From a virus, in IMG/VR virus record IMGVR_UViG_3300025732_003882, positions 1 through 20,047 of that record: a DNA stretch of 20,047 nucleotides. One strand, 5' to 3'. The position numbers were made by a program, and so were the translations under genes. The notes beneath the pieces were generated by a model. The model saw only the letters and a list, made by a program, of their open reading frames with translations. It had not been told where the DNA came from and did not search any database. Shown in pieces: positions 1 through 20,047 of the stretch (position 1 is its first letter; every line of letters begins with the position of its first letter).

Positions 1-366
1 TATAGGAGAAATTCCTATAAATGTAGGTATAGTAGAAAAATTAGGGGCTGCTATCTCAATACGGCTGGGTATCTCTATTCTGCTCGGAATTGAGATAGGG
101 CTTATTGAAATAAAAGTGGGAATACTAACACTACTAGGACTAATTGTAATTCTTGTAGGAATTGTAATTGGACTTATCGATATAAGTGTTGGTATATTAA
201 GCGGAGGAACAATTTCAATAACAGAAGGAACAGAAATGTTTCCGATTGGAGATGCATCCAAGCAAGGAAAAACTATTGGGGGTATATTATATTTGTTCTC
301 AAGTTGAACAAATGGACTAATAGTGATTGGAGGTATAACAGGAGGTGGTGGTATAGGTATCTCAAT
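1..366 (-). repeat. Pro/Ile/Ser low-complexity protein repeat
   Basis: Residues 275-396 of the left-edge CDS are dominated by Pro, Ile, Ser and Thr. From residue 331 there is a degenerate alternation of short units such as I-S-I-S-P, I-T-I-P-T-R and I-E-I-P-S-R, about 10-11 residues per turn. At DNA level the units are imperfect (recurring AATTGTAATT-type words on the plus strand near 140-175). The array continues past the window edge. Such Pro-Ile repeats fit an extended beta-rich shaft or linker; this is inference. Confidence 0.7.
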
Positions 367-1188
367 AGTACCATCTCCGGTAATTTGTTGAGTTGGCTCA
401 GAGATGCTTTCTCTTTCAGTAGGTGTGATAGTTATCGAACAAAGAGAATTGCTCACTGTTAAGACGGGGTCTATATTTGCATTAATTGCGTAGACATGAG
501 TTCCTTCTAACAAGAAATTATTAGTAGTTCCATCTCCAAAATCCAAAATAAAATTTGTATCTAACGCAGGATTGTTGATTGCTATCTGATATTGAGCAGT
601 TATTCCTGTTATATTATTTTTATCAATTATGTTGAATACAAAATTAACATCCGCACAAGAATGATCATCGAAAATTATCGGAAGCTCAGATAAATTTCTT
701 ATTCTCCAATCTAGTGTTTCTTGATCTTCATTAAGATTGTAACCAATAAAGCTTTCAGTATTAATTATAGCGTCAGCTAATTGATTATGATGCTCTGCTA
801 TTACAAATCCTCTTACTTTTGTTCCACGTCTGTTAAATTTAGTTTGAGTGCCTCCTAAATTTCTCACACAACCTTTAAATTTTGTTACCAAATAATAACC
901 AGAAACATCACTATCCCCTGTGTCAGATGCACTATCTATAGGCTTATTATTTTCAAAAAATACACGAGATCTTTCCACAGAATTATAATAAAAAAGCTCT
1001 CCATCTATGCTAGCATAGCCGTTATCGGCCCAAACTTCATGAGTGAATATAGGTCTAACACTTATTTCTTCAGCCCAAGCAGGACAATCTTCAGACAAAA
1101 TAGATTCAGAGGTATTATATACTAAAAATAAAGTCTCATCAGAATCATATCTTTTAGGGTATAATGGTGATGGTGGTGGTTTGCTCAT
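1..1188 (-). CDS. PKD-type virion fibre/adhesin protein, 3' end outside window (partial)
   Basis: The minus frame from an ATG at 1188..1186 stays open to base 1 (396 codons, no stop), so the C-terminus lies beyond the left edge. The start is supported by a purine-rich GAGAGG Shine-Dalgarno at 1192..1197, 12 nt after the previous stop. The N-terminal ~150 residues match the module of the two preceding proteins and end in the helix with A-E-H-H-N at 131-135. A PKD-like Ig fold follows (about 170-256; F-G-D-G at 217-220 and H-V-Y at 231-233). From about residue 275 the protein becomes a Pro/Ile/Ser repeat. It is most likely a baseplate-attached fibre or adhesin; the exact role is inferred from position and domains only. 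An alternative is a structural decoration protein. Confidence 0.85.
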   Translation of the reverse strand, partial: MSKPPPSPLYPKRYDSDETLFLVYNTSESILSEDCPAWAEEISVRPIFTHEVWADNGYASIDGELFYYNSVERSRVFFENNKPIDSASDTGDSDVSGYYLVTKFKGCVRNLGGTQTKFNRRGTKVRGFVIAEHHNQLADAIINTESFIGYNLNEDQETLDWRIRNLSELPIIFDDHSCADVNFVFNIIDKNNITGITAQYQIAINNPALDTNFILDFGDGTTNNFLLEGTHVYAINANIDPVLTVSNSLCSITITPTERESISEPTQQITGDGTIEIPIPPPPVIPPITISPFVQLENKYNIPPIVFPCLDASPIGNISVPSVIEIVPPLNIPTLISISPITIPTRITISPSSVSIPTFISISPISIPSRIEIPSRIEIAAPNFSTIPTFIGISPI

Positions 1189-1200: not shown

Positions 1201-3486
1201 CTAGTAGCATTTAAATTGCCACTGATTTCCTGTTGGTCTTGATCCTATATATTTAAAGGTTAAATCTACATTATTAAACTTAATAAATGATTTTTCACTA
1301 TAATCGTAACTTAAATAAGCAACCTGGTCGTTGTCGCTAGTTGCCAACAATGATTGGTTGTGATTATCAAAATATTCTTTATTAACATCTTGTAAAAATC
1401 TAAATTCACTAGAATTTGTACCTGGACCTCCTGTAGCCCATACATCTGATGATGAATTATAAACAGATATAGAGCCTGTATTATTAAACATGAATATGCC
1501 ATCGGAAAGATTAACTAATTGTCCTTCAGATTTTACTGGGCCGCTCAAATCAGACATTTTCTTTATAGACAATATTTCATTAGAATTTGTACCAGAAGTT
1601 TTATAAAAAGGTCTAAATCTAAAATAATCTCCTTCGCCCTCACTCCTCAATATATATCCAGTTCCATCTCTCCATATGCTTCTTTGTGGAGTATAATATT
1701 CTTTTTCGTCATTATCCTGTGCATTTTTACAAGAAACTAGAACCTCTCCAACACGCCATGCTTCACAAACCGAATTTACCTTTAATTCATCAGCACCATT
1801 TAAATATTGATCTATCTTATATTCATTATAAGAAAGGTTATTTAAATTTATTTTTGTAATAAATTCATTTGTTAAAGAATTGCCAAGTGAATTTTTACCA
1901 AAACAAAAATAAAGTCCATAGTTGCTTGTAAAATCAACCCAATTCCACGGTCTACTTATATAACTAGAATTACTCGAGCCTAAGGAAACACTTTCTAAAG
2001 TTTGTTTGAACCCATTAAATTTTCTAAGATGTATTTTTTCAACTGCGGAGGAGTCTACACCGCTAGTTCTGCCACTAGCCCAATATATTAGTGATTCTCC
2101 CAAGTCACCAGAAGAAACATTACTTTTTTTGCAAAAACCATTATTTCTATTGAACTCTCTAAGTTTTCTACAGTTTTCATTATAGCTATAACTATCTAAA
2201 TTGCATTTGCTTCTAATAAAACTATCATCTATTTGAGGGATAGAGTAACTCGATAGTGTTTTGAAAGTTTCACTTATTAATCCAAACTCATAATTAGTTA
2301 TAGAATCTTTATTATTGTTGATGTTCCATAGCCATAAATTTGTTTTCTCTACAATATCGATTTGATTTTCAAAAACAGTTATTCTAAAATTGCCATATTT
2401 AGTGTCAACTCTTAATCCAACATCATAAATACCACCAACACTAAAACTGCACTTCGTGGAACTATTATTGAAGTGATTCAAATCATCAACAATGCTCCAA
2501 GTGTAACTTGAAACAGAGTCAGTTGAATCTTGAGACAAACCAGAATCAAAAACATCTATTTGTATTACATTATTAACACCACATCTTACAGATCCATTGT
2601 ACTCTATTTGATTAATTGAGTCTTGTATTATTATCTCTGCTTCAGATGGAGAAGTTCCTCTTACATTTATCATATTTTCAAAAACAACAAAATCACTACC
2701 ATACTCATTTTCTACTAATAATCCAACAGTATAACTTCCAGGAGAATTATAGATATAAGAAACTTCTTTTTCTTCTGTGGATAGTTTCTCGTATTTTAAA
2801 ACAGCATCATCTTGGGTGGCAGTTTTAGGCGAATATAAACCATTAACTTTTTCCAAATCAAAATACCAAGTATATTTATTTTTTTTACTTAAACCATCGG
2901 TACCTAAGCTAAAAGTATAATCATTAAATTTAATATTTGCTGGAGATGCTGAGACATTTTTACTTGAGGAAAACCAAGCCCTTGGACCCAAAACAATTTT
3001 TCTAAGATAGTTTATCCTTTCTTCCATGGTTCCTTGATAAGGTGATGTTCCTACTTTTCCTTTAATTCCTACAAACTTTTGAATATTTATCAAAGCATCT
3101 TTTAAACTATTGTGATGTTCTGCTATGACATTCTGACATACAGATGTGACACTTTTATATTTTTTTACATCATTGAAATTATCTAAAATTTCTACGCCAT
3201 CAAAATACCAAGGATTCACACTATCTAAAAGGTCATTTGTTGTTCTACTAGTGTATGTAAAGCTAATTGATCTGTTCTGGACATCATCACATTGATCTGT
3301 TAGTGTTATCACTCCGCCGCCTTGAGAAGCGTTTGGAAAAGAACTCATAACAGATTTACTACCTACAACATAAATTCTGGAATCACCAGGATTGTAGTCC
3401 TCTGCTAACTTTAGTCTCAAATAATCATGAACTAAATAAAGATTTTTATTATTATCGAAATTTTCTGGATAATTGCTAAGGCTCAT
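1201..3486 (-). CDS. PKD-domain virion fibre protein with propeller-like C-terminus
   Basis: This is a 761-aa protein, probably attached to the baseplate or exposed on the virion. Residues 1-140 form the shared N-terminal module (start Y-P-x-x-F-D, then a beta-rich stretch with G-V-I and S-R-T, then A-E-H-H-N-S-L-K-D at 122-130). Two PKD-like Ig folds follow: about 165-276 (W-Y-F-D, then P-G-S-Y-T-V-G-L) and about 297-379 (S-Y-T-W, then G-I-Y-D-V-G-L). The remaining ~380 residues hold recurring Gly/Trp beta motifs (W-A-S-G, F-N-N-T-G-S, W-A-T-G-G-P-G, S-D-N-D-Q-V-A-Y-L-S-Y-D), resembling kelch-like propeller blades, which is a tentative reading. The start codon overlaps the upstream stop (ATGA), implying coupled translation. 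Receptor binding is plausible but unproven. Confidence 0.85.
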   Translation of the reverse strand: MSLSNYPENFDNNKNLYLVHDYLRLKLAEDYNPGDSRIYVVGSKSVMSSFPNASQGGGVITLTDQCDDVQNRSISFTYTSRTTNDLLDSVNPWYFDGVEILDNFNDVKKYKSVTSVCQNVIAEHHNSLKDALINIQKFVGIKGKVGTSPYQGTMEERINYLRKIVLGPRAWFSSSKNVSASPANIKFNDYTFSLGTDGLSKKNKYTWYFDLEKVNGLYSPKTATQDDAVLKYEKLSTEEKEVSYIYNSPGSYTVGLLVENEYGSDFVVFENMINVRGTSPSEAEIIIQDSINQIEYNGSVRCGVNNVIQIDVFDSGLSQDSTDSVSSYTWSIVDDLNHFNNSSTKCSFSVGGIYDVGLRVDTKYGNFRITVFENQIDIVEKTNLWLWNINNNKDSITNYEFGLISETFKTLSSYSIPQIDDSFIRSKCNLDSYSYNENCRKLREFNRNNGFCKKSNVSSGDLGESLIYWASGRTSGVDSSAVEKIHLRKFNGFKQTLESVSLGSSNSSYISRPWNWVDFTSNYGLYFCFGKNSLGNSLTNEFITKINLNNLSYNEYKIDQYLNGADELKVNSVCEAWRVGEVLVSCKNAQDNDEKEYYTPQRSIWRDGTGYILRSEGEGDYFRFRPFYKTSGTNSNEILSIKKMSDLSGPVKSEGQLVNLSDGIFMFNNTGSISVYNSSSDVWATGGPGTNSSEFRFLQDVNKEYFDNHNQSLLATSDNDQVAYLSYDYSEKSFIKFNNVDLTFKYIGSRPTGNQWQFKCY

Positions 3487-4745
3487 TGAATTATAATTTC
3501 TTCCTTCAAAAACGATTTTTTAATAACTTGATTTTTAAATAAAACAAATATGCTTGGTGATATATTTTGTGAATCTAGATACATGAAATTTAATGAATGA
3601 GAATTAGGATCTGTCTCTGTATATTGGGTAATTTGTTGCTCTTGAAAAAAACCTATGGTGGGCGATGTTATAATTTGATCTAATTTTCTGACTTTTATAT
3701 CTGTATATATCTTTTGACCAATATTTGTATAATCGGCACTTATTATATTTTCTATAATATTTGATTGTGATTTTATAATGCACTTATAATCACTGGTTAT
3801 GCTCTCTGGTATTTTTTTGTTTATTCTAAATAATGTATAATCAGAATTGCTATTATTTATTGTGGCCTTATACATTTTTTTGACCAAATAACCAGAACCA
3901 TTAAAATTCCAAATTCTTTCTTTCACATCTCCATCTGTCTGGTCCACAAATTCAAACAAAGTAGGATTGTTCTTAGAATAGTTATTTCCAACTAATGGGG
4001 AAACATAAAAAAATGGAGTTTTTTCTTCATCAGAAACAACAATATAATTGCTTTTTGTTGATATGCCTTGCCCTCCCATAGAACCAACAACATTCAATTC
4101 AACAGTATATGTTCCTTCTTGATAATAAGTATGCACTGGATTTTTTTCAGAAGATGTGTTTCCATCTCCAAAATCCCAAAAATACTTAACAATTGGACCT
4201 GTGCTAAAACTTTGAAATGTTACAGTGAGAGGAGAGGTGCCTTTTAAAGGATATGCTCTAAAAATAGGCTTGGTGATTAAGAACCTATTCTCTTGTTCCT
4301 TCAATATACCATTTAATGAAGCAGAGTTTGGATTTTTAATTAAACCAAGATCTACTTCCATTTTTATTATTGCATCTTTTAGGCTATTATGATGTTCTGC
4401 ACTTACGGCATTAGAAACAGAACTATTTATATTCCATTGGCTTCTAGAGCTGCCTGCAAAGCCTCTAATAAGTCCTTTGAAGGTATTAGATGTTTTAGAA
4501 GAATAATAAATCAATTCTCCATTTTTTGAATCAAAATTATCAGATATCTTAATAACACCTTTATCTGGGAATTTTTCGGTGGACTCTACGACCATAACCA
4601 ATGCAGAATAAGTCATTGTTTGACGCAATTTAGTTAAAGCATTATTACTAACCTCATAAAGGGTTTCTTTGGTATCTATAGCTTCAGGAAAAACAGATAA
4701 ATCACCTGTCTGATAGCCGTCTTGTAGTGTGTGAATTTTAGCCAT
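3483..4745 (-). CDS. PKD-domain virion fibre protein
   Basis: This 420-aa protein has the clearest PKD domain in the window: about residues 162-238, with W-D-F-G-D-G at 190-195, H-T-Y at 205-207 and G-T-Y-T-V-E-L at 211-217. The N-terminal ~135 residues are the module shared with the next two genes: a G-E-L-I-Y-Y-S-S-K-T-S-N-T-F-K-G segment (76-91), typical of phage structural proteins, then S-A-E-H-H-N-S-L-K-D-A-I at 115-126. The C-terminal ~170 residues are beta-rich and unrecognised. It overlaps the upstream gene by 8 nt and the downstream gene by ATGA. PKD folds are common Ig-like spacers or carbohydrate-contact domains on phage virions; a fibre or decoration role here is inferred. Confidence 0.87.
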   Translation of the reverse strand: MAKIHTLQDGYQTGDLSVFPEAIDTKETLYEVSNNALTKLRQTMTYSALVMVVESTEKFPDKGVIKISDNFDSKNGELIYYSSKTSNTFKGLIRGFAGSSRSQWNINSSVSNAVSAEHHNSLKDAIIKMEVDLGLIKNPNSASLNGILKEQENRFLITKPIFRAYPLKGTSPLTVTFQSFSTGPIVKYFWDFGDGNTSSEKNPVHTYYQEGTYTVELNVVGSMGGQGISTKSNYIVVSDEEKTPFFYVSPLVGNNYSKNNPTLFEFVDQTDGDVKERIWNFNGSGYLVKKMYKATINNSNSDYTLFRINKKIPESITSDYKCIIKSQSNIIENIISADYTNIGQKIYTDIKVRKLDQIITSPTIGFFQEQQITQYTETDPNSHSLNFMYLDSQNISPSIFVLFKNQVIKKSFLKEEIIIQ

Positions 4746-6265: not shown

Positions 6266-6772
6266 TTAAATAAAGTTTATTCTCCAATTCCAAGTAATTT
6301 GTATTTGTTCTGTCTTTGTTAAACTAGGAAATGTGACCATACTATATAGTTCGTCGTTAGCCATTTGTAGAGCCATTTCACTTAAAATACTACCATTACC
6401 CTCTGAGTAAGACACTACAGATGTAAATATCACCTCAGTTCTAATTTTAGGATCAATTGAGGCAATAACAGGTTTGGTTAATAATTTTGTGCCATACAAA
6501 GAATATCTAGACTCAGCAACAGGCTTAGTATTATTGTTGCTATCAACTCCCCCATCTCCAAAAATCATTCTTGATATGTAATAAGAGTTTCTTTCACTTG
6601 GTCCACCTTCTGTTGCAGATAGTGATATTGTTGAATTTGCTAAAGTGGCGGCAAGTGCTTCCTTGCCTTTTTTTAATATGGTATTTTTTAATGTGTATTT
6701 TTTAATAGATTTTTCTAAAGAATTTTCTATTATAAAATCTACATATCCACAAACATTTTGGAAATCTTTCAT
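6266..6772 (-). CDS. Small virion structural protein, baseplate region
   Basis: The 168-aa protein starts at an ATGA overlap with the end of the gpI-like gene. An N-terminal helical part (about 1-48; K-K-G-K-E-A-L-A-A-T-L-A at 34-45) is followed by a beta-rich domain with M-I-F-G-D-G-G (69-75). The conserved-looking C-terminal segment holds S-E-M-A-L-Q-M-A-N (130-138), L-Y-S-M-V-T-F-P (141-148) and I-T-W-N-W-R (159-164). Proteins of this type occur next to baseplate and fibre genes in other large phages, but I cannot name a T4 counterpart. A fibre-base or baseplate-rim role is inferred. No Cys pairs, membrane segment or signal peptide suggest export. Confidence 0.8.
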   Translation of the reverse strand: MKDFQNVCGYVDFIIENSLEKSIKKYTLKNTILKKGKEALAATLANSTISLSATEGGPSERNSYYISRMIFGDGGVDSNNNTKPVAESRYSLYGTKLLTKPVIASIDPKIRTEVIFTSVVSYSEGNGSILSEMALQMANDELYSMVTFPSLTKTEQIQITWNWRINFI

Positions 6773-9700
6773 AAATTAACCTCTTTTTCCTCTCCATTAA
6801 TATTCTCAATTCTAACAAAAATATTTTCTTTTTGAATAGAAATCTCAGCAGGGCCATTATTTTTATTGGACATACTTATTAATTGATTTTCATTGGTGCT
6901 ATTTGCAACACCATCACATTTAATTTCTATTTCTTTTTGAACAACACCAAAGTTAGACCTGTTTATTTCAGCCTCTATGGTGTCCAGATTTCTATTTTGT
7001 TCTTGTATTGTCATGGTGTTATTTTTATACTGGTAGAATGCACAAGAGCACTGCTTTTTATCTTTTAGTAATCCAAAATCTTCAAAATCTCCAAATAAAC
7101 TAAGAGTATTTGTATTTCCTGAAGTTTGTATGTCAGATATAAAATAGTAATTATCTAAAAAGTTTTCTGAAGTTATTTTTATTGCATATTCTTCAAAATT
7201 TTGAACAAAAGAAGAAGGCAAAGGAATTGCTATATAACCCTTTATTCCATTGTATTTAAAGCTTCCAATTTGATTTTTTGTAATATAATTTAAAACCTTC
7301 ATGGGAAGAGAACCAGAATCTTCACCAAAATAACCACTAATATAAAATTCATCTCTATTATATTGCACTATTGGACATGAGTAATTTGTACCATTTTTAG
7401 AAAAAGTTAACTTCAAATCATAATTATTTTTATATTTTATTTCTAAAAATTTATTAACCTTAGTTCTATTTTGATAAGTTATTTTTGAATAAGAAAAATC
7501 AGTATTGATCTTTAAAGCAACTTTGCTTTGATCAGATTTCAATATACTATACTTTGTATTAAAGCTTTTATCAATCTTATTGTTGTTATTTTTTAATATA
7601 ATTTTATTTTTAAAAATATTTTTTATGTCATAAGTATCACTTCCTATGGATACTTTATTAGAAGAATCTATATCTAGCTTTAAAAAATCTATTTGTGGAT
7701 CTTCTTCAAGCAATTCTACATAATCATCTCTAATCAAGTCTGCCGTGAAATTGTATGTTTCTTTATAAATATTAAATACAAATGTAGAATTGTTTGTATA
7801 ATCTTGAAAACTTGTATCAATAAAATTACCATTAGGATTAGAGACGCTATATATTCCACTATAGATACTTGGAGTTAAAATTTCAATCATGCTACCTTCT
7901 GGTGTATTATTGAAATTAAAATCTGGGGAGAATAGAGAAATTTTATCATTATACAAAGAAATATCGGCGTTAAACAAAAAAGATTTTTCAGAAAGTTCAC
8001 TTCTACTAACAGAATCGTTGGATAATCTGCTTCTGTGAAACCATCTTTGAAGACCTCCAGAGACATTATTCTCAGAATATTTAAAAGTCATTAATATTTC
8101 ATAGCTTTCTAATGGTGTTATAAAATATTCATTATTTCCACCCAAATAATTAATAGTTCTAAGCATAGAATGGAAAGGCGTATTTTCTGCTAATATCTCT
8201 TTTGCCTCTAAAATTCTATCGTCACACAAATTTTGAATTTCTAAATCCACATCAAAATTGCTGCTTCTACAACTAGTGCAGGTATCCAAAAAATCTTTAT
8301 CTATGTCACAAGGATTTTTAGAATCACGTATGGAATTATGCGAAACAATTCCATTTGAAATATATGAAGTTGTATCCTCTACGTTAAGTGGGTCAAAAAC
8401 TTCTTCTTTAGGACCCTTACTTATATTTTTTACTTTTTCAAAAAACCAATGATTTTCTACATAATTTTTAAGAAATAAAAATTCATCATTGTGTATTCCA
8501 AATTTTTCTGCTTTTTTATATATATCAAAAACTACATTATCTGGGATGGTTTGTTGGTAACCCTGCTTCAGTCTAGTTATGAGGGTAATTAATCTCTTTT
8601 CCTCTCTTGATCTGTCTTTCACATTTAAATCTGATATTCTCTTCCTGGTAGGGAAGATGGATCTAATTATCTTATTACCAAATGGAATTACTGTTCTATC
8701 TGCCTCTAGAATGGAGACACTTTCTAATTTAACAGCTTCTACAAGCGAGTTACTTTTTAATAATGAATTAAATCCAATTTTTTCTTTAAAAATTTCTCTA
8801 CTTTTTTTACCTAAAATTCTGACTCTGTAGTACTTTCTATTTTTCCCTTTCCAAAAAACCTTATAACGGGTCACAGAAGACGTTATATCCAACATCAATA
8901 ATAAATTTTGTATTTCATTTGCTAAGCTTTTCCATTTAGTGGTCAAAAGAGGCTGTCTTTTTTGGATACCACCATCGGTATCAAAAATTCCTCTTAAAAA
9001 CGAGCATATTTGATCTTCGCCGCTTGTCCATATTGATGGTGGCAAAATCTTTCGCCACTCTCCTTTGTGTTTATAGTCAGGAATTATTGAATCTAATAAT
9101 GGTAATTGGCGGCTAGAAGACGATATTCTCCATAAGTCTTCGTTGCATTTAAATTTAGTATGCATTTGATGTATTGATTTTTTTAAACAAAATATTTGAT
9201 GTTTGGCATTATATTTTTTAATTATTTGATGAATTAAACTTTTAATTTCCATTTCTTTTTCAGAAATTAGCCATCTAAAAAATCTTAAGTTGTTCTTCTC
9301 ATATACAGTGCCATCGCCATAAAGATGGCCAGCCAAATACCACAAATCACTATCTATCCCTTTATTTTTTGAAATAGAATTATTATTGCCCTTTTTGCAT
9401 AAAATATAATCACCTTTGCTCAATTCAAAAGTTTGCTTCCAATGAAATCCAGAATCATTAAACACTTTAAATTTATGATTAGGAGTAACAACTATTCTTC
9501 TTCCAAGACTGGTGGTGATGTTTATTGTTTCTTTTACACCTTGATTTATTAATTTTTCAAATTTCTTAAAACCGAACTCCGTAAGTATTAATTTATCATC
9601 TTTAATATCTTTTATCTTTTTTGGACCATTTTCTGTTATTATGATGGTGGAACCTATACAACAGCCATTGTACTCTTCCATGTTATAAATGTTTTCGCTA

Positions 9701-11223
9701 TATGGAAATTCTGTTCTTATTTTTCCAAAGACCACATCTTCAGTAAATGGATGTCTGGTTTTTATAACATGGTCTATGAAAGGATCATTTTCTTCTATTA
9801 GTTTGATATTCCAATTTTTTAAAGGAAGAATAGGCTCTTCAGATACATATTGCTCTCTAGTGTCCATTAGCGGCAGTTTTTTTATATACTCGGCAATGTT
9901 CTTGTCAAAGTCATTTTGAGGCAATTTATAACAATACTCTACCTTAACAATATAAGAGGTTATCGGAGTACTGTTTAAAACAATTTTTGTAGAAAAGTCT
10001 TCTTGAAAAATATTATAATCAGCAGAACTTAATTCTTTTTCAGACTCAGGAGTATAAACATATACACTGATTTCTTCTCCAACTAATTTTTTACTTAATT
10101 CAAAAGTGTCTTGGTTAGAACTTAAATAAAAAGAATCAACATAATAAAAAGGTGAAATGACTTGCCAATAATTACGAATTCTCATGAGTCTCATGCCGGC
10201 CTGGTCGAAAGCGTCATTAAGCGACTCTGCTGTTCCTTTCTTTTTAAATAAAGGAACAGCTTCTTTTATTTGTCTTCTCCAAAGAGTAGGATCACTACTC
10301 TTTAAATTTAAATTCAATGTATTAGAAAGATAATAAATAATATATTCATTAACAGAATTTGAATCAAGAAGATCAACTATTTGGTTTGTTAGGTCTTCTA
10401 AAACATTAAATCCCTTAGCTATAGATTTATTTAACTTGTCAAGAACAGTAGGGGTCAGGTCATTTTCAGAAATATACTCTTTAAACATTTCAGGAGTATA
10501 TCTTTCTAAAAGATCCAAATATTTTTGTGGATTAGTTCTATGCAGTAATGTACTAGTGTTAATGGCCGTGCTTGATCCTAGATAAAATTTTAAATGATTT
10601 GATATCTTTGCAGCCCCTTTATAAGGTGTATACGTCCAACATATAAAATAATCGCCTTCTCTAACGCCTTCAGGAGTCCAAACAAATTCAAAGCAACCTA
10701 TTTTTCCATCTATTTTTTTTAACAAAAGATTATCAGGATCTTGCTCATCTTTACTAGTTCTTTTGTAACCAAGTTGATCATTTGGATTTGGACAACTTAC
10801 TATTTTAGGTAAATTTGGATTTGAAGAACTGCTTCTGTAGTATTTTGCTATTTCTTCTTCAGTTGGACACTCTAAAACATTATTAACCCATAATGGCGGA
10901 CCAATTTTAAATACAACTACAGCATCACTATAGTGGAACAGTGTGTCATCGCCAGAGTATGTGTTTTTATTAGAAAAATTTCTCTCAATATAATAGATTG
11001 TTATATCATCAAAGGTGAAGGGATCCAAGCAATCATCTTCGCAGTAATCATCTGCACTTTCGTCGCAACAATAATCGCAATTATCTCCAGACTTTGTAGT
11101 CTTAAATTTAAAAAGAATTTTATCTACTATAGTGGGATTTTCATCTATAGTTAGTGGCTTTTCAACACAACTTTCTTCTCTGAAGTGGTCATTTATACAA
11201 TCTATATAATTGAATTTACTCAT
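6769..11223 (-). CDS. P2 gpI-like baseplate/tail protein interrupted by an intein
   Basis: This is a 1484-codon gene whose mature product should be about 1041 aa after removal of the intein at residues 521-963. The N-extein holds a segment resembling the phage tail protein I family (about 225-360; Y-L-D-L-L-E-R-Y near 235-242, W-R-R-Q-I-K at 315-320, F-K-K-K-G-T-A-E at 326-333). In that family the protein links the gpJ/gp6 wedge to tail fibres. The position right after the gp6-like gene, with an ATGA overlap, agrees. The extreme N-terminus carries an acidic cysteine cluster (C49, C52, C53, C61, C65). The C-extein begins S-I-R-D-S-K-N-P-C and contains a family-like segment N-T-P-F-H-S-M-L. The rest is a long Asn/Lys-rich beta-type tail with no recognised domain. 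It is much longer than P2 gpI (under 200 aa), as seen in large phages. Confidence 0.88.
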   Translation of the reverse strand: MSKFNYIDCINDHFREESCVEKPLTIDENPTIVDKILFKFKTTKSGDNCDYCCDESADDYCEDDCLDPFTFDDITIYYIERNFSNKNTYSGDDTLFHYSDAVVVFKIGPPLWVNNVLECPTEEEIAKYYRSSSSNPNLPKIVSCPNPNDQLGYKRTSKDEQDPDNLLLKKIDGKIGCFEFVWTPEGVREGDYFICWTYTPYKGAAKISNHLKFYLGSSTAINTSTLLHRTNPQKYLDLLERYTPEMFKEYISENDLTPTVLDKLNKSIAKGFNVLEDLTNQIVDLLDSNSVNEYIIYYLSNTLNLNLKSSDPTLWRRQIKEAVPLFKKKGTAESLNDAFDQAGMRLMRIRNYWQVISPFYYVDSFYLSSNQDTFELSKKLVGEEISVYVYTPESEKELSSADYNIFQEDFSTKIVLNSTPITSYIVKVEYCYKLPQNDFDKNIAEYIKKLPLMDTREQYVSEEPILPLKNWNIKLIEENDPFIDHVIKTRHPFTEDVVFGKIRTEFPYSENIYNMEEYNGCCIGSTIIITENGPKKIKDIKDDKLILTEFGFKKFEKLINQGVKETINITTSLGRRIVVTPNHKFKVFNDSGFHWKQTFELSKGDYILCKKGNNNSISKNKGIDSDLWYLAGHLYGDGTVYEKNNLRFFRWLISEKEMEIKSLIHQIIKKYNAKHQIFCLKKSIHQMHTKFKCNEDLWRISSSSRQLPLLDSIIPDYKHKGEWRKILPPSIWTSGEDQICSFLRGIFDTDGGIQKRQPLLTTKWKSLANEIQNLLLMLDITSSVTRYKVFWKGKNRKYYRVRILGKKSREIFKEKIGFNSLLKSNSLVEAVKLESVSILEADRTVIPFGNKIIRSIFPTRKRISDLNVKDRSREEKRLITLITRLKQGYQQTIPDNVVFDIYKKAEKFGIHNDEFLFLKNYVENHWFFEKVKNISKGPKEEVFDPLNVEDTTSYISNGIVSHNSIRDSKNPCDIDKDFLDTCTSCRSSNFDVDLEIQNLCDDRILEAKEILAENTPFHSMLRTINYLGGNNEYFITPLESYEILMTFKYSENNVSGGLQRWFHRSRLSNDSVSRSELSEKSFLFNADISLYNDKISLFSPDFNFNNTPEGSMIEILTPSIYSGIYSVSNPNGNFIDTSFQDYTNNSTFVFNIYKETYNFTADLIRDDYVELLEEDPQIDFLKLDIDSSNKVSIGSDTYDIKNIFKNKIILKNNNNKIDKSFNTKYSILKSDQSKVALKINTDFSYSKITYQNRTKVNKFLEIKYKNNYDLKLTFSKNGTNYSCPIVQYNRDEFYISGYFGEDSGSLPMKVLNYITKNQIGSFKYNGIKGYIAIPLPSSFVQNFEEYAIKITSENFLDNYYFISDIQTSGNTNTLSLFGDFEDFGLLKDKKQCSCAFYQYKNNTMTIQEQNRNLDTIEAEINRSNFGVVQKEIEIKCDGVANSTNENQLISMSNKNNGPAEISIQKENIFVRIENINGEEKEVNL
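8335..9663 (-). other. Intein with LAGLIDADG (DOD) homing endonuclease
   Basis: In-frame protein intron of 443 codons, residues 521-963 of the gpI-like gene. Block A is C-C-I-G-S-T-I-I-I at 521-529; counting six residues from the catalytic Cys to the conserved Thr favours C521 as residue 1. Block B is T-P-N-H at 580-583. The endonuclease motifs are L-A-G-H-L-Y-G-D-G at 630-638 and L-R-G-I-F-D-T-D-G at 743-751, with catalytic acids D637 and D750 intact. Block F is at about 941-953 (E-V-F-D-P-L-N-V-E-D). Block G ends I-V-S-H-N at 959-963, with penultimate His and terminal Asn, followed by Ser +1. All splicing residues are present, so self-splicing to join N-G with S-I-R-D is expected. The intact endonuclease implies recent or ongoing homing capacity. 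If C522 were residue 1 instead, the element would be 442 codons (8335..9660). Confidence 0.95.
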
Positions 11224-12776
11224 AAATTAGTTTCATATTGGAAGTTTACATATACTGAACTTGGTCTTATTATTTGATTAAACTTAGGAGTAATTATATT
11301 GGTAGAACCTTGATCTATCACGAAGGATATCTCGTATCTATTTGGATCAGAGATATCAGATAAAATTTTCATTAAATCTATTTCTCTTAATATCTTGCCA
11401 TAATCCCAGTTTACTAATAAAAAGAAGTTGTTTATTCTTCTTGCAATTTTTTCTTTGATTTCCTCTTCAAATTTTCTATAGAACCTATCAATGAATACGT
11501 CGATATTTACATCTACATATAAAATATCTCCGTCTCTTATGCAAACATGGTCTGTGAGCATTTTAATTTGATCTATATATGTTGTTAATTCTGCCTTTAG
11601 TTGATCACTAGCAACTCCTAAAGTAGAATCGTCTATTCTGCCTAATACATACAGATCTATTATATTAGCGGCACATCCATAATTTCTTAATACAGCAGTA
11701 CTTTTGCCTATCTGGCCTTGATAGGGGGATGCAAATTGCTCGGATAATGTTTTGTAATCCAAACCAGTAACTGCTCTATTTTGTGTTCTTAAATATTGAG
11801 GAAGTTTTCTTCTGATATCTTCTATGGTATCCCCATTATAACCATACTCTCCTTTGGTATAATTGCTAAATGATACGGGAACACTAAGGTCGTAATTTGG
11901 AGGATTAACTATGCCTTGTGTGTTAATGCTTCCAGCAATAATATTGCCTACAGTCCCACCACCAGTTCTATATGTGACATTTATTGCAGAACCTTGAGAA
12001 GGTATCAATCCTCCTCTGTTATTGCCAAATATTATATAAGCAGAATATGAAGAATCAAACTCTACCCTATACTCTCTTCTTCTTTGCGAGTCAGTGAAAT
12101 AATCAACTTGATTCCAACGAACACCATCCACATCAACTCTTATAGAATCATAAATTACAGGAGAATAAGATAACTGTATAGATTGTCCAATTTCACCTGT
12201 ACTAGAAAAAAGCTCAGTTCTGGATCTTCCTTCTAAGCCAATTATATTAGCATTAACAAAGCTACCTGCTGGTATGATAATGTCTTGATCAAGAATAGGA
12301 TTGCCATTAGAATCAGCAGGGAAAAGCTCAAATCTTATTGGAGTGCTACCGCTAATAGTGTCAATATCGTATGCAGGAGGTATCTGCAGATCAAAATTTA
12401 AAACATTATTAATAGTTGCGGTGAATAAACATCTACTTGCTATTGGAGGTTGCGGAGTAAATCCAACTAATTTACTTAATCTAAAGGCATTTTCTAATTC
12501 AGTTACGGTATCAATAAATATTTCATTAGCTATTTGGTCCATCTTAAAGCTTAATGTATCGGCCAAGAAAGCCCAATTTTCAATAAGCATGACTCCTAAA
12601 GATGATTCTACAAAATCGTTAAAATCCTCAGAAAATTCTTGTCTTATAAAATCAACCAATCTAGTCTTCATTGACCAGAAATCTTGATTGGTGTAATTTA
12701 AATTAAATATGTTAGGCTTATTTATTTCCTGCGATTGTGCATAAGGCGTTATATCAAAAGGACAGTTATTACTCAT
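11220..12776 (-). CDS. Baseplate wedge protein, gp6/gpJ-like (Baseplate_J family)
   Basis: This 518-aa protein matches the contractile-tail baseplate J / T4 gp6 family, the wedge core whose iris-like rearrangement triggers sheath contraction. Visible signatures: a helical N-terminus (about 30-105; G-V-M-L-I-E-N-W-A-F-L-A-D at 61-73); a beta domain with I-F-G-N-N-R-G-G-L-I-P and V-T-Y-R-T-G-G-G-T-V-G-N (249-278); then the family hallmark R-A-V-T-G-L-D-Y-K-T-L (334-344); and an alpha/beta C-terminal domain to residue 518. It lies 23 nt after the gp25-like gene, with only a weak Shine-Dalgarno (AAAGAG). The gp25, gp6, gpI order is conserved in contractile injection systems. It is clearly longer than P2 gpJ (about 300 aa) and somewhat shorter than T4 gp6 (about 660 aa). 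Confidence 0.93.
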   Translation of the reverse strand: MSNNCPFDITPYAQSQEINKPNIFNLNYTNQDFWSMKTRLVDFIRQEFSEDFNDFVESSLGVMLIENWAFLADTLSFKMDQIANEIFIDTVTELENAFRLSKLVGFTPQPPIASRCLFTATINNVLNFDLQIPPAYDIDTISGSTPIRFELFPADSNGNPILDQDIIIPAGSFVNANIIGLEGRSRTELFSSTGEIGQSIQLSYSPVIYDSIRVDVDGVRWNQVDYFTDSQRRREYRVEFDSSYSAYIIFGNNRGGLIPSQGSAINVTYRTGGGTVGNIIAGSINTQGIVNPPNYDLSVPVSFSNYTKGEYGYNGDTIEDIRRKLPQYLRTQNRAVTGLDYKTLSEQFASPYQGQIGKSTAVLRNYGCAANIIDLYVLGRIDDSTLGVASDQLKAELTTYIDQIKMLTDHVCIRDGDILYVDVNIDVFIDRFYRKFEEEIKEKIARRINNFFLLVNWDYGKILREIDLMKILSDISDPNRYEISFVIDQGSTNIITPKFNQIIRPSSVYVNFQYETNL

Positions 12777-12799: not shown

Positions 12800-13210
12800 T
12801 TAACTTAAAGGAATTTCAAGTTTTAATTCTTGAACATTAGATATTTGTTCTGGGTCAAAGAACCTTATTTTTATATATAGTATATTATCTAAATCTTGTA
12901 AAGCATCGTTTTTATTTAGATTTTCTCTAGTAGGTTTTACAACATCTATACTTTGTATTGTAATTCTTGGTTCCCACTTATTTATTGAATCAATTATCAT
13001 CTTTTTTGCTTGTTGCTCAAGGATAGCATCACTTTGTTCAAAAACTAACCTTTTTAAAGGTGTGCCAAAATCAGCTAAAAACACTCTTTCTCCCGGATTT
13101 GTCAACAATAATATCAATAAATCTGCCTTTATTGTGGCAAGATCAGTTTGAGTTCTAAAATAACCCAAAGGATTTTTAGTAATTGGATAAGGTGTTCCTA
13201 AAAAATTCAT
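12800..13210 (-). CDS. Baseplate wedge / sheath initiator, gp25-like (GPW_gp25)
   Basis: The 136-aa protein has the length and motifs of the GPW/gp25 family, which in T4 nucleates sheath polymerisation on the baseplate and contacts gp6. L-L-T-N-P-G-E-R-V-F-L-A-D-F-G-T-P-L-K-R lies at 35-54, followed by L-V-F-E; the conserved E-P-R of the core bundle is at 80-82 (K-W-E-P-R-I). It is one of the most securely identified genes here. It starts within a TAATG junction with the spike gene, indicating translational coupling; the gp6-like partner follows directly. No anomaly seen. Confidence 0.96.
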   Translation of the reverse strand: MNFLGTPYPITKNPLGYFRTQTDLATIKADLLILLLTNPGERVFLADFGTPLKRLVFEQSDAILEQQAKKMIIDSINKWEPRITIQSIDVVKPTRENLNKNDALQDLDNILYIKIRFFDPEQISNVQELKLEIPLS

Positions 13211-15402
13211 TAAATTACTCCTGGAGCGTTATTTGCAGCATTATTTGCATTGTTATTTGCGTCATTTAATACTTGGTTTTGTTGATTAGTGAGATTATCA
13301 CCATCTCCGCCACCAGTATCACAGTTAGTTAGTGGTTCCATCATAAATATATTTGCAGCATTATCTGTTTTCTTGGCACTGGCGAAGACTCTGCTACTAA
13401 GCCTAATACATCCATTTACATAAACCAAAACAGGCCCAACACATGGACCCATTTCTCCTGTATCTGGATTTGGGCAATCTTTGCCAGCCAATAAAAAGAT
13501 ATTTTCGTCTGCTAAGAAGAAGTGAGATTTTTTTGTTAAATTAACATAATAATCTTCGGTAGATACAACTTTTTGTCTACTAATTATCTCTATATAATCA
13601 GAAGGATTATTTTCTTTATCTCCTATAATATCCACTTTATCTTTACAAGTAGATACTATATATCTGCCGCCTGCTCTAACCCATATAAATGAAGATTCTT
13701 TTGATTCGCTTTCTTGCATTCTTATAATATGAGGTCCACAATCATTATTTTTTTGCGGTGCTTGAAGTTGAATATACTGTCTCTGTGTTTCTTTTTGAGA
13801 ATTAGAGTCTGCCATACGCATCTCTAAACCATAACCACTTCTTATACTAATATAAGCTTTTTTAGAATTGTTTTTAGGAACTCCTCCTTCTTTCCTAAAA
13901 GGAGAACATTGTTCATTTGCCTCATCAACCATATCAAGAGTATGTCCAGATGTACTTTTAATATGAACACCTCTTTCAGAGCCAGCAACACAATCGGCTA
14001 CAGTATGATCATTTAATTCTATTTCATTGCCAGTAGCTGTTTTTATTTTTATATAATTATTTTTGCTTCTAACTGGGCTATCTGGGTTTTCTTCAACATC
14101 GCTCATCTCTATGGTATGCCCAGTAGCACTTTTCCAATAACTTCTTCCTACAAAAAGATTGTTGCATCCAAAATCAAAGCTTTTAGTGCTTCTTTCCCAA
14201 CTTAAATCTCCCCCAGGCTCTTCCACACTGTCATCCATAACAAAAGTATGACCGCTAATACTCATTAATTGTATTCCAGTTTGAGGTAAATCACATATAT
14301 TGTTTTGTGGAGTGCCCGGACCTTTGTATGGACGGCATTCATTCTCATGTTTAAAATAAGGATTATCACCAATTTGTTTTTTATTATATTTTGTTGAAGG
14401 ATGACCTGTGTCTGGGTGCCCTCCTATTATCTTACTGTTACTTTTATCTCCTTCGCAACTTGTTTTCTCCTTGGGATCATAAGAACTTATAGAATATCCA
14501 GAATTAACATTATCATCATTAAAATTAGATAAACTTATTCTGGTAACATCTTTAGATGGATCTCCTTCATCTTGATCTTCAACGCAACTAACATCTCCCT
14601 CTCTGGCACCACAACTGGTGTGTGCCCATTGACCAGCGTAGTGTATATGATCATCCTTCATCATCATCCAATTACCACAACTACTCATTATTTCTAATCT
14701 TTTCCATCGCCTATTACATTTTGCATCTCCATCAACCATCTTCATCATGTGTTTTTCTGGAGTTTTAAAACCATAAATATTAGGATATGTTATTCTCTTT
14801 TGTGCTTCCGGGTCATTATTAAAATCTACTACTGTATTTATATCATAACCATTGTAGCTTTCTGTATTCCATGGAGGCAAAACTTGAGATTCATCATTTT
14901 TCCCTACAAGATAACCTTTTCTATGGCCATCATATATTTTTTCATATTCTTGAATATTTTTATAAATCCATCTTTTATCACCTATAACTCCTCTGTTTCT
15001 ATTCCACACAGTGCCATGATAAAAGGGACTATCTCTGTTTCCCCCTTCAAAACTAATAACAACAGTAGAACCTGCTGGGGGTATCCAATTTAAACCGCTA
15101 TCATCAAATCCACCCATTGATGATATAGGCATTGCCCAAGGCATTTCGTTGATAGGCCTATTGGGATTCATTAACAAAGGAGAAAAAATTCTTATTCTAT
15201 TCATTTTCCAGATATCAACTGTATCAATACATAGAGCAGTGTATATTCCAAAAAGTGTTTCATTTTGCAATGGAACCTTCAATATTTGATTAAGTTCTTG
15301 AGTCACTATATGCTTGGATTGGTAGCCTAAATCTCCAATTCTTTGTTCTATTTCTCTTAATCTTTTATCTAAATCTATTATTTGATTTTCTTTAGCTATC
15401 AT
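13210..15402 (-). CDS. Central spike protein, gp5/VgrG-like, no lysozyme domain seen
   Basis: The 730-aa protein is the likely membrane-puncturing tail spike. A short N-terminal coiled helix (1-40) precedes a gp5/VgrG-type OB-fold (about 42-138: M-N-R-I-R-I-F-S-P-L, P-W-A-M-P-I, W-I-P-P-A-G-S-T-V-V-I-S-F-E-G-G, Y-H-G-T-V). From about 230 it is a beta-repeat region in which a turn recurs: S-G-H-T-F-V-M-D-D (383-391), T-G-H-T-I-E-M-S-D (427-435), T-G-N-E-I-E-L-N-D (457-465) and S-G-H-T-L-D-M-V-D (485-493), consistent with a triple beta-helix. It has 17 cysteines and a C-terminal Asn/Ala-rich tail (703-727). Unlike T4 gp5, no lysozyme motif lies between OB-fold and helix. An AAGGAT Shine-Dalgarno precedes the ATG. 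It sits next to its gp27-like hub partner. Confidence 0.9.
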   Translation of the reverse strand: MIAKENQIIDLDKRLREIEQRIGDLGYQSKHIVTQELNQILKVPLQNETLFGIYTALCIDTVDIWKMNRIRIFSPLLMNPNRPINEMPWAMPISSMGGFDDSGLNWIPPAGSTVVISFEGGNRDSPFYHGTVWNRNRGVIGDKRWIYKNIQEYEKIYDGHRKGYLVGKNDESQVLPPWNTESYNGYDINTVVDFNNDPEAQKRITYPNIYGFKTPEKHMMKMVDGDAKCNRRWKRLEIMSSCGNWMMMKDDHIHYAGQWAHTSCGAREGDVSCVEDQDEGDPSKDVTRISLSNFNDDNVNSGYSISSYDPKEKTSCEGDKSNSKIIGGHPDTGHPSTKYNKKQIGDNPYFKHENECRPYKGPGTPQNNICDLPQTGIQLMSISGHTFVMDDSVEEPGGDLSWERSTKSFDFGCNNLFVGRSYWKSATGHTIEMSDVEENPDSPVRSKNNYIKIKTATGNEIELNDHTVADCVAGSERGVHIKSTSGHTLDMVDEANEQCSPFRKEGGVPKNNSKKAYISIRSGYGLEMRMADSNSQKETQRQYIQLQAPQKNNDCGPHIIRMQESESKESSFIWVRAGGRYIVSTCKDKVDIIGDKENNPSDYIEIISRQKVVSTEDYYVNLTKKSHFFLADENIFLLAGKDCPNPDTGEMGPCVGPVLVYVNGCIRLSSRVFASAKKTDNAANIFMMEPLTNCDTGGGDGDNLTNQQNQVLNDANNNANNAANNAPGVI

Positions 15403-17906: not shown

Positions 17907-20047
17907 TTAAACTCTTTGTGCTGTTTGTGATTGTTTGCCTGTTCCCCATGGATAATAATTTGCTGGCTTACTGGGTTGTTTATTTGTACTGGTGTCTGAG
18001 GCAACCTGCATTGAAGTTCCAGTGGTATTATCTTTACTCAATGAATCTGCTATCTGCTGTAGTAGACTTACGGCTTCTATAAGTTGTTGAGTTTGAGTCT
18101 TTCCTTCAGAAGCCAATGTTCCTAAATCAGAACTTTCTATCTTATTAGAGGGCTCAGAAGAAATTAATTCTCTTTGTACAGAACTCTGCATATTTTCATT
18201 AGGAGCGGTTGTTGCCATAACATTAGCTTTTGGTGATATTGTTGCCATTTCACTAGCAATGGCAGTAAATTGATCTATCTTATCGCTATTAGCCAAGAAA
18301 CTATCTAAGTTTTGATCAAATGTCTTTACACTTTCAGAAAGTATCTGCATAGCGGTGGCAGTTATCATTAAATTTTGACCAGCAGCAGAAAGAAGCATTA
18401 TTTTATCTAAAATGCCATTTCCACCAAAAAAGCTAAGTATTCCTCCTCCCGCAACAGCAGCACCAAAAGCTAATAAAGATCCAGATAAAATAAGTAGTGC
18501 TCCAGAAACCGCAATTATTCCACCAGCTCTTTCTAGTGTTAGTTCTGACATAAAACCTTTTAATCCACCCATAACACTATCAACTATTGTTGCTATTCCT
18601 TCAAAGGCACTTTTAATTGCTTTTCCAAAAGCTTCTACAAGAGGAGCTAGTAAACTGAGTGCAAAAGCTAGCGGAATGAGAGCCACATTAAATGCAGCAA
18701 GAGCAGCTAATCCTAACCAAAAGTAAGGATTCATAGCTGCTTGTCCAAAGGCTTTCAATCCACTCGCCAATGCACTCAGACCGGCTTGTGCTAGTGGACC
18801 TACAACTCCTAATAAGGCCATTCCTGCTAATCCTGGTAGCATTAGTACAAAGCCGGCAGCAGCAGGTATTAATGTCAAAGCTCCCAATAACACCTTAGCA
18901 TTTGCCATAGTCTTTAATCCTTCTGCTAGGCCGGTGAGACCAGTTTTAAGAGCTTCTCCATCAATTTTAGAAACTAAATAAGCACCTGCTGAGCCAGCCA
19001 CCATAGCCACTAAACCAATACTCGCTGGTATGAGGTTTAGTGCACCAAAAAGAACATCTCTTCCGGCCAAAGCCTTTAAGCCTTCAGCAAGATTTTTAAG
19101 CCCTATCTTTGCATTTTCCATGGCACCTATTTTGTTGCCAGATTCAGCTACTTTTTCTAGTCCTTCACCTTCTTTTTTACCAAAACCTAATTTTTCTTTA
19201 CCAGATTCATATAATCCCTTGGCTTTATTTTTTGCTTGATCAAGCAATCCTGGTTTAGCTGGACCCATTTCATTTTCGCCTAATTTTTTACCAAATATCT
19301 TTTCTTTGCTAGATTCATATAATCCCTTAGCTTTATTTTTTGCTTGATCCAATAAGCCGCCACTTGTTACTCCTGTCATTGCATCTTTTTTACCAAATAA
19401 TTTTTCTTTTAAGATATCACTTTTTTCTTTAGCAATATCTATCAATCCTTTTTGACCTGTTATTCCTTTTGCAAAATCAGCTTTTTCTCCAAATAAACCA
19501 TCTTTGGCTCTTTGAAGAATGCCTTTTTTGACTTTTTCTCCATCTTTTTCTCCTAATAAACCATCTTTAGCTCTTTGAAGAAGGCCTTTTTTGACTTTTT
19601 CTCCTTCTTCACTACCTAATAATCCTTCTTTTGCCCAATCATAATTTTCTAATATTTTATTTTTTGTATTGTCTAAGAATGAACCCTTCTTTGCTATTCC
19701 TCCTTTTGTCATGCTCATGTATTGGCCTTTAACGCCTCTTGATAAAGATTCAAAATAACCTTTTCCATCTTCTCTAGCTTTGGAAAAACCTTTGGTTAAA
19801 GGACTAAACATTTTTTTAGCAGGACCAGAAATGTTATCTTCAACAACTCCAAAAATGCTTTCGGATAACTTATTATATCTTTCCGATATTCCTTTAAAGA
19901 AAGAGTTATCAAAGAATTTTTGTTTAAAACCTTCATACTTCTCCATCAAACCAGAGAAAAAACCACCAGTATCAGCACCTTTAGCAGATGGACTTTTTGT
20001 TTTCAAAGAACCCAAAGAACCCATTACGGAACCAATAGCTGATCCGC
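17907..20047 (-). CDS. Tail tape-measure protein, C-terminal part (5' end outside window)
   Basis: The reading frame has an ATG at 20024, but no Shine-Dalgarno precedes it. The frame stays open to the right edge (G-S-A-I-G-S-V before the Met), so the gene almost certainly starts outside the window. The visible ~712 residues (numbered from that Met) are Ala/Gly/Lys-rich helix. First come amphipathic Lys-rich repeats (about 130-285), then long hydrophobic helical segments (about 325-350, 378-410, 435-465, 500-530), then a Ser/Thr/Gln-rich C-terminus ending near a Y-Y-P-W-G motif (690-694). Length, repetitive helices, hydrophobic segments and position directly before the baseplate genes fit a tape measure. 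That protein sets tail length and is thought to help DNA pass the host membrane. No peptidase or lysozyme motif is seen in this part. Confidence 0.85.
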   Translation of the reverse strand, partial: GSAIGSVMGSLGSLKTKSPSAKGADTGGFFSGLMEKYEGFKQKFFDNSFFKGISERYNKLSESIFGVVEDNISGPAKKMFSPLTKGFSKAREDGKGYFESLSRGVKGQYMSMTKGGIAKKGSFLDNTKNKILENYDWAKEGLLGSEEGEKVKKGLLQRAKDGLLGEKDGEKVKKGILQRAKDGLFGEKADFAKGITGQKGLIDIAKEKSDILKEKLFGKKDAMTGVTSGGLLDQAKNKAKGLYESSKEKIFGKKLGENEMGPAKPGLLDQAKNKAKGLYESGKEKLGFGKKEGEGLEKVAESGNKIGAMENAKIGLKNLAEGLKALAGRDVLFGALNLIPASIGLVAMVAGSAGAYLVSKIDGEALKTGLTGLAEGLKTMANAKVLLGALTLIPAAAGFVLMLPGLAGMALLGVVGPLAQAGLSALASGLKAFGQAAMNPYFWLGLAALAAFNVALIPLAFALSLLAPLVEAFGKAIKSAFEGIATIVDSVMGGLKGFMSELTLERAGGIIAVSGALLILSGSLLAFGAAVAGGGILSFFGGNGILDKIMLLSAAGQNLMITATAMQILSESVKTFDQNLDSFLANSDKIDQFTAIASEMATISPKANVMATTAPNENMQSSVQRELISSEPSNKIESSDLGTLASEGKTQTQQLIEAVSLLQQIADSLSKDNTTGTSMQVASDTSTNKQPSKPANYYPWGTGKQSQTAQRV
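18675..19094 (-). repeat. Hydrophobic ~54-aa repeat (two clear copies, one diverged) in the tape measure
   Basis: Residues 311-347 and 365-401 align at a 54-residue offset: L-A-E-G-L-K, then V-L-[FL]-G-A-L, then L-I-P-A, then a hydrophobic helix ending A-G. A weaker third copy follows at about 415-450 (L-A-S-G-L-K-A-F to A-L-I-P). Each unit pairs an amphipathic helix with a membrane-compatible segment. Confidence 0.75.
19173..19358 (-). repeat. 36-aa (108-bp) repeat in the tape measure
   Basis: G-L-L-D-Q-A-K-N-K-A-K-G-L-Y-E-S occurs at residues 223-238 and again at 259-274, each followed by a K-E-K and G-K-K segment. The offset is 36 residues. The motif resembles the nearby 21-aa unit in spacing and charge, so the whole Lys-rich segment may come from one ancestral helix unit. 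Confidence 0.85.
19479..19604 (-). repeat. Tandem 21-aa (63-bp) repeat in the tape measure
   Basis: Residues 141-161 and 162-182 (from the Met at 20024) are near-identical tandem copies: G-E-K-V-K-K-G-[LI]-L-Q-R-A-K-D-G-L-[LF]-G-E-K. The copies are back to back with a 63-bp period and the DNA is still similar, suggesting recent duplication. Confidence 0.85.

Follow-up and report, generated by a model that had tools for sequence, protein, structure and literature searches.

A LAGLIDADG intein in a gpI-like phage baseplate gene, with comparative evidence for homing

A gpI-like baseplate gene in a 20,047-nucleotide stretch of IMG/VR virus record IMGVR_UViG_3300025732_003882 (the window, by which we mean that whole stretch) is interrupted by an element that, to judge from its sequence, is a full-length class-1-type intein with a LAGLIDADG (DOD) endonuclease, lying in frame between G520 and S964 of the precursor. 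The best explanation, and one we hold as very probable, is that this intein and its homing endonuclease form a selfish element that has settled in the gpI-like gene. From knowledge of the family, the precursor would splice itself by the standard route, in which C1 forms a thioester, the +1 Ser attacks it and the terminal Asn cyclises with the aid of the penultimate His, and splicing would leave a 1041-aa baseplate protein without a scar. The freed intein would be expected, again from family knowledge, to cut the gene in co-infecting phages whose copy has no intein, its target being the DNA that encodes the near-invariant YNMEEYNG-S motif (hyphens in motifs mark junctions), and repair from the carrier would copy the element into the cut gene. 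Such an element could persist selfishly at a site that a phage cannot easily mutate.

Anatomy of the intein and its host gene

Pfam places Intein_splicing on residues 552–963 (8.7e-15, 55.3 bits, cut-off 35.8) and LAGLIDADG_3 on residues 738–817 (2.5e-16, above cut-off), and the two NCBIfam models for intein termini, TIGR01445 (intein_Nterm) and TIGR01443 (intein_Cterm), each hit the corresponding end of the element (Table 1). The N-terminal junction reads NG-CCIGST and the C-terminal junction VSHN-S, with C521 as the first residue and N963 as the last. C522 was considered as C1 and dropped in favour of C521, because the related allele L084 begins NG-CVVSST, with a single Cys at the junction. 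The element carries a C1 nucleophile, a block B TxxH, a penultimate His followed by a terminal Asn, and a +1 Ser, as class 1 inteins do, and the +1 Ser is also present in all empty homologues. Its two LAGLIDADG motifs each hold a catalytic Asp, the mark of a DOD endonuclease. The G+C content of the intein (29.5%) does not differ from that of the extein (28.7%). A structure model of the intein was discarded as too weak (mean pLDDT 45.6).

An earlier note on this DNA had described a 443-codon, full-length intein with an intact DOD endonuclease (D637 and D750) in a gpI-like baseplate gene. Its coordinates are right to the base (C521–N963), and both aspartates are present and invariant in six alleles. 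The Pfam splicing domain, the NCBIfam end models and the exact empty sites described below bear out a full-length element, and the Tail_P2_I domain and gene neighbourhood agree with the host that it had named.

The host frame contains no internal stop over its 1484 codons. Tail_P2_I (Pfam) matches residues 262–355 of the 1484-aa protein (4.7e-6, 27 bits, cut-off 20.6) and is above cut-off in the window and in loci L003, L032 and L085; homologues without the insert are about 1000–1040 aa long. A gpV-like spike, a gp25-like protein and a gp6/J-like wedge protein are the usual order of neighbours in the baseplate clusters of contractile tails, and the order at this locus is V-gp25-J-I; the gpJ/gp6-like gene and the start of the gpI gene share 4 bases. 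From the Pfam domain and the baseplate gene order we infer that the host gene encodes a gpI-like baseplate protein, and from these same two sources its presumed role as a wedge or fibre anchor. An AlphaFold model of the empty homologue L003 has a mean pLDDT of 71, with the insertion site below 50; a Foldseek search with this model gave a best E of 0.002, and some baseplate chains are among the matches listed, none at E <= 0.001. The segment RTEFPYSENIYNMEEYNGS (residues 502–520; 9664–9720, minus strand) is almost invariant over about 150 loci, yet has a pLDDT below 50 in the same model; it might be an interface loop.

The sole relative in the annotated phage collection is LR756511, a 595-kb uncultured phage (34.5% identity), and several gpI-like homologues sit on contigs of 230–527 kb; the window is therefore probably a fragment of a large phage. 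Three consecutive genes of the window (1–1188, 1201–3486 and 3483–4745, minus strand) have an N-terminal region in common, with the motif AEHHN.L.DAI and PKD-like stretches, which suggests that a tail-fibre or appendage gene is present here as paralogues in tandem; the product of gene 1–1188 ends in a repeat rich in serine, proline and isoleucine. Adjoining the baseplate genes, 17907–20024 (minus strand) encodes a large protein rich in alanine, in which KKGLLQRAKDGLLGEK and LLDQAKNKAKGLYES units recur.

Table 1 Features of the gpI-like gene, its intein and the neighbouring baseplate genes.
Feature	Position in window	Strand	Basis
gpI-like baseplate gene, 1484-aa precursor; predicted spliced product 1041 aa	6769..11223	-	Open frame, Pfam Tail_P2_I, insert-free homologues
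N-extein, residues 1-520, ending RTEFPYSENIYNMEEYNG	9664..11223	-	Alignment with empty homologues
Intein, 443 aa, residues 521-963, first C521, last N963	8335..9663	-	Pfam, NCBIfam end models, allele L084, empty homologues
Block B TPNH, intein residues 60-63	9475..9486	-	Invariant in alignment of six same-site alleles
First LAGLIDADG (DOD) motif LAGHLYGDG, D637 = intein D117	9313..9318 (covers G116-D117)	-	Alignment
Second DOD motif FDTDGG, D750 = intein D230	8971..8982 (covers intein 228-231)	-	LAGLIDADG_3, invariant
Block G, penultimate His and terminal Asn (HN)	8335..8340	-	Six-allele alignment
C-extein, residues 964-1484, starting with the +1 serine SIRDSKNPCDIDKDF	6769..8334 (stop codon included)	-	Empty-homologue alignment
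gpJ/gp6-like baseplate wedge gene	11220..12776	-	PHROG 219 and others, baseplate wedge subunit
gp25-like baseplate wedge gene	12800..13210	-	Pfam GPW_gp25 1.2e-16
gpV/gp5-like spike gene (OB domain)	13210..15402	-	Pfam Phage_base_V 9.2e-8

Empty sites and conservation of the insertion point

IMG/VR was scanned twice for homologues of the host protein. The first scan used the N-extein as query with patterns that included one in ENIYNMEE, just upstream of the site; this pattern biases the sample towards the ENIYNMEE motif but not against inteins, as these lie downstream of it. All 80 of the 80 loci that it returned are empty, with the homologue continuous over the joint and NG-S at the joint in every case. 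For the second scan, the queries were an alignment of residues about 205–490, which does not contain the motif, and patterns placed elsewhere. Among its 80 loci (six of them already seen), three stop before the site, 72 are empty and five carry an intein, and the 72 empty sites among the 77 readable loci have G-S at the joint in every one. Over both scans, about 150 homologous loci (a count of loci, not of independent phages; the two scans overlap in contigs) lack exactly residues 521–963, and the joint itself has neither extra nor missing residues. Because so many homologous loci without exactly this segment align over the joint, chance is excluded. These are the intein-free homologues whose search the earlier note had proposed; homologues in which residues 521–963 align as tail protein were also looked for, and none was found.

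These loci bear directly on whether the segment could instead stay in the mature product, either as an additional domain that folds within the tail protein or as a Hint-like insertion without activity. We regard this as vanishingly improbable, as all splicing residues are present, the empty sites at about 150 loci are exact and leave the joint unchanged, close relatives differ in having or lacking the segment, and the inteins resemble each other more than their exteins do.

The insertion point of the proposed homing element adjoins the most conserved motif of the protein, ENIYNMEEYNG-S. The 12-residue segment ENIYNMEEYNGS is the most conserved in the protein (rank 1 of 819 windows of that length) in the first sample, which was partly selected by that very motif. 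Every readable locus of the second scan still shows the motif with few changes, e.g., ENVYNMDQYNGS and ENLYNMDEYDGS. The position of the site beside this motif agrees with the suggestion, made earlier as one option, that the intein simply exploits a conserved site.

Same-site alleles and their transfer

A DNA pattern for MEEYNGC led to L083, L084 and L085, and the alignment scans led to L098 (on the same contig as L111), L109 and L112. These six further contigs carry a related intein at exactly the gpI joint, in five distinct alleles (L083 and L085 are identical over the gene), making seven contigs and six distinct alleles when the window is included. A search for relatives with short exact peptides of the window intein alone found none, and bacterial and archaeal genomes scanned with the intein alignment gave no match. 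The same-site inteins are 436–444 aa long, with both Pfam domains in those scanned, and C1, TPNH, both DOD aspartates (D117 and D230) and the HN end are invariant in the six alleles. Among themselves the alleles share 43–96% identity, far more than with any of the inteins found at other sites.

For pairs with unsaturated dS, dN/dS is about 0.13–0.24 over the intein, and about 0.16–0.18 over the endonuclease core in two such pairs; pN lies far below pS in the saturated pairs. In the comparison of the window with L085 or L111, the endonuclease core has a pN of 0.16–0.18 against a pS of 0.71. On these substitution patterns, the endonuclease is kept under constraint and is not decaying. A vertically inherited relic, still competent to splice and with an endonuclease already dead in the window allele, would accommodate the saturated dS between this allele and its relatives; the invariance of both catalytic Asp residues in six alleles, the low pN of the core and the incongruence between intein and extein all argue against such a relic, which we consider very unlikely.

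The incongruence, which is in keeping with a homing element, is seen in both the identities and the extein tree. The window intein is 69–71% identical to four same-site inteins, with exteins at only 30–54%. Against L085, the identities are 71% for the intein, 42% for the N-extein and 30% for the C-extein, and against L111 they are 70%, 47% and 38%, respectively, while the L085 and L111 inteins are 79% identical as compared with 70% for the window and L111. In a tree of 91 exteins (quick search, SH-aLRT support), a supported group of 12 contains the window and L111 but not L085; L003 and L004, the closest extein relatives of the window, are both empty. Five changes are needed for the six carriers on this tree, all of them forced by well supported branches.

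For L109 and L112, the closest pair, dS is 0.07 in the intein, 0.53 in the N-extein and 0.58 in the C-extein, and for L111 and L112 it is 0.33 in the intein versus 1.29 and 1.48 in the exteins. The divergence between L109 and L112 steps at both edges of the intein: there are no differences in the first 100 intein bases, and outside the intein the nearest upstream difference is 25 bases away and the nearest downstream one 7 bases away. An empty site is found in L110, which shares 88% and 85% identity with the carrier L109 in its exteins. By these comparisons, the intein DNA in the L109, L112 and L111 alleles is much younger than the gene that surrounds it; recent transfer is demonstrated for these alleles only, because comparisons of the window allele with its relatives give saturated dS. 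Presence and absence, the dS step and the tree incongruence are what homing predicts, and they provide comparative evidence for recent homing within the same-site family, between diverged large phages.

This distribution also bears on the suggestion in the earlier note that the intein allows post-translational control of assembly. A conditional intein, with slow or signal-dependent splicing, could time baseplate assembly and be kept as a regulator. Conditional splicing is documented for some inteins, such as that of mycobacterial DnaB (PMC6195587), virion assembly is expected to depend on the host protein, and the splicing domain is under purifying selection. However, such selection is expected anyway, as a failure of splicing would break an essential gene, and the conserved endonuclease fits homing and not regulation. 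Nearly all relatives are without the element, including the one with 85–88% identical exteins, and its sporadic presence and absence among close relatives argues that the phages do not need it. Control of assembly is left unsupported, and we think a regulatory role most unlikely. The compound proposal of an undescribed baseplate insertion site, repeatedly invaded by an actively homing element whose splicing is also tuned to baseplate assembly, is highly unlikely as well.

Relation to known inteins and significance

Other LAGLIDADG inteins share the splicing blocks and DOD endonuclease of the putative homing element, with alignments over half to most of its length. These are the intein part of PRK07773 (NCBIfam; DnaB-type helicases), the helicase inteins of Staphylococcus phage Twillingate and S25-3, SPbeta bnrdE and the terminase intein of Psychrobacillus phage Perkons; in contrast to their shared architecture, they have only about 21–27% identity to the window intein and occupy other host genes and sites. 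The PI-PfuI intein (PDB 1dq3) gives a weak sequence match with its splicing domain and DOD endonuclease (E 0.0042), but is archaeal and distant, and its host is a ribonucleotide reductase.

The inteins of mycobacteriophages and of T4-like phage terminases are also sporadic, reside at conserved motifs, carry homing endonucleases and vary in presence among close relatives (PMC5050341, PMC3868846, PMC3706429), but their hosts are enzymes that act in DNA packaging or on nucleic acids, and the portal. A mycobacteriophage survey reports portal inteins and lists no tail or baseplate hosts (PMC5050341); inteins of terminases and non-structural genes are mentioned in a 2013 paper (PMC3706429). The contrast drawn in the earlier note between a structural host here and catalytic hosts elsewhere was overstated, as structural portal hosts exist in mycobacteriophages (PMC5050341) and in the same phage group as the window.

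Within that group, 8 of the 30 related contigs searched have other inteins above cut-off. Pfam identified two of these as T4-like portal proteins, each with a mini-intein of about 217 aa and no LAGLIDADG match; by eye, the same portal extein can be seen in the remaining frames. These mini-inteins (L086–L093, on the contigs of L012, L013, L035, L036, L072, L078, L081 and L082) appear to lie at a single site, FADE(A/S)-C...HN-C, of a T4 gp20-like portal protein, and have a conserved non-splicing insert (RQF.DEW...). Like the gpI intein, they occupy a virion structural gene in the same phage group, but they differ in length (about 217 aa), in their +1 Cys, and in site and gene. The contigs of L012 and L013 have a second intein (L094 and L095) with LAGLIDADG-like motifs, in an actin-like protein that is of ParM/FtsA type by eye.

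In the open-licence literature, we found no earlier description of a baseplate or tail intein. The kind of element is known, and the host gene and insertion site appear undescribed in the literature covered; within that scope, the novelty of the site is provisional. The finding would extend the host range of inteins to a tail baseplate protein, and it offers a natural series of empty site, closely related carrier and distant carrier in which homing between diverged large phages can be followed in a structural gene. This is in line with the idea that an intein's place is set by the conservation of its target sequence and not by what the host protein does as an enzyme. Where inteins in structural genes go unnoticed, the predicted lengths of tail proteins would also come out too long.
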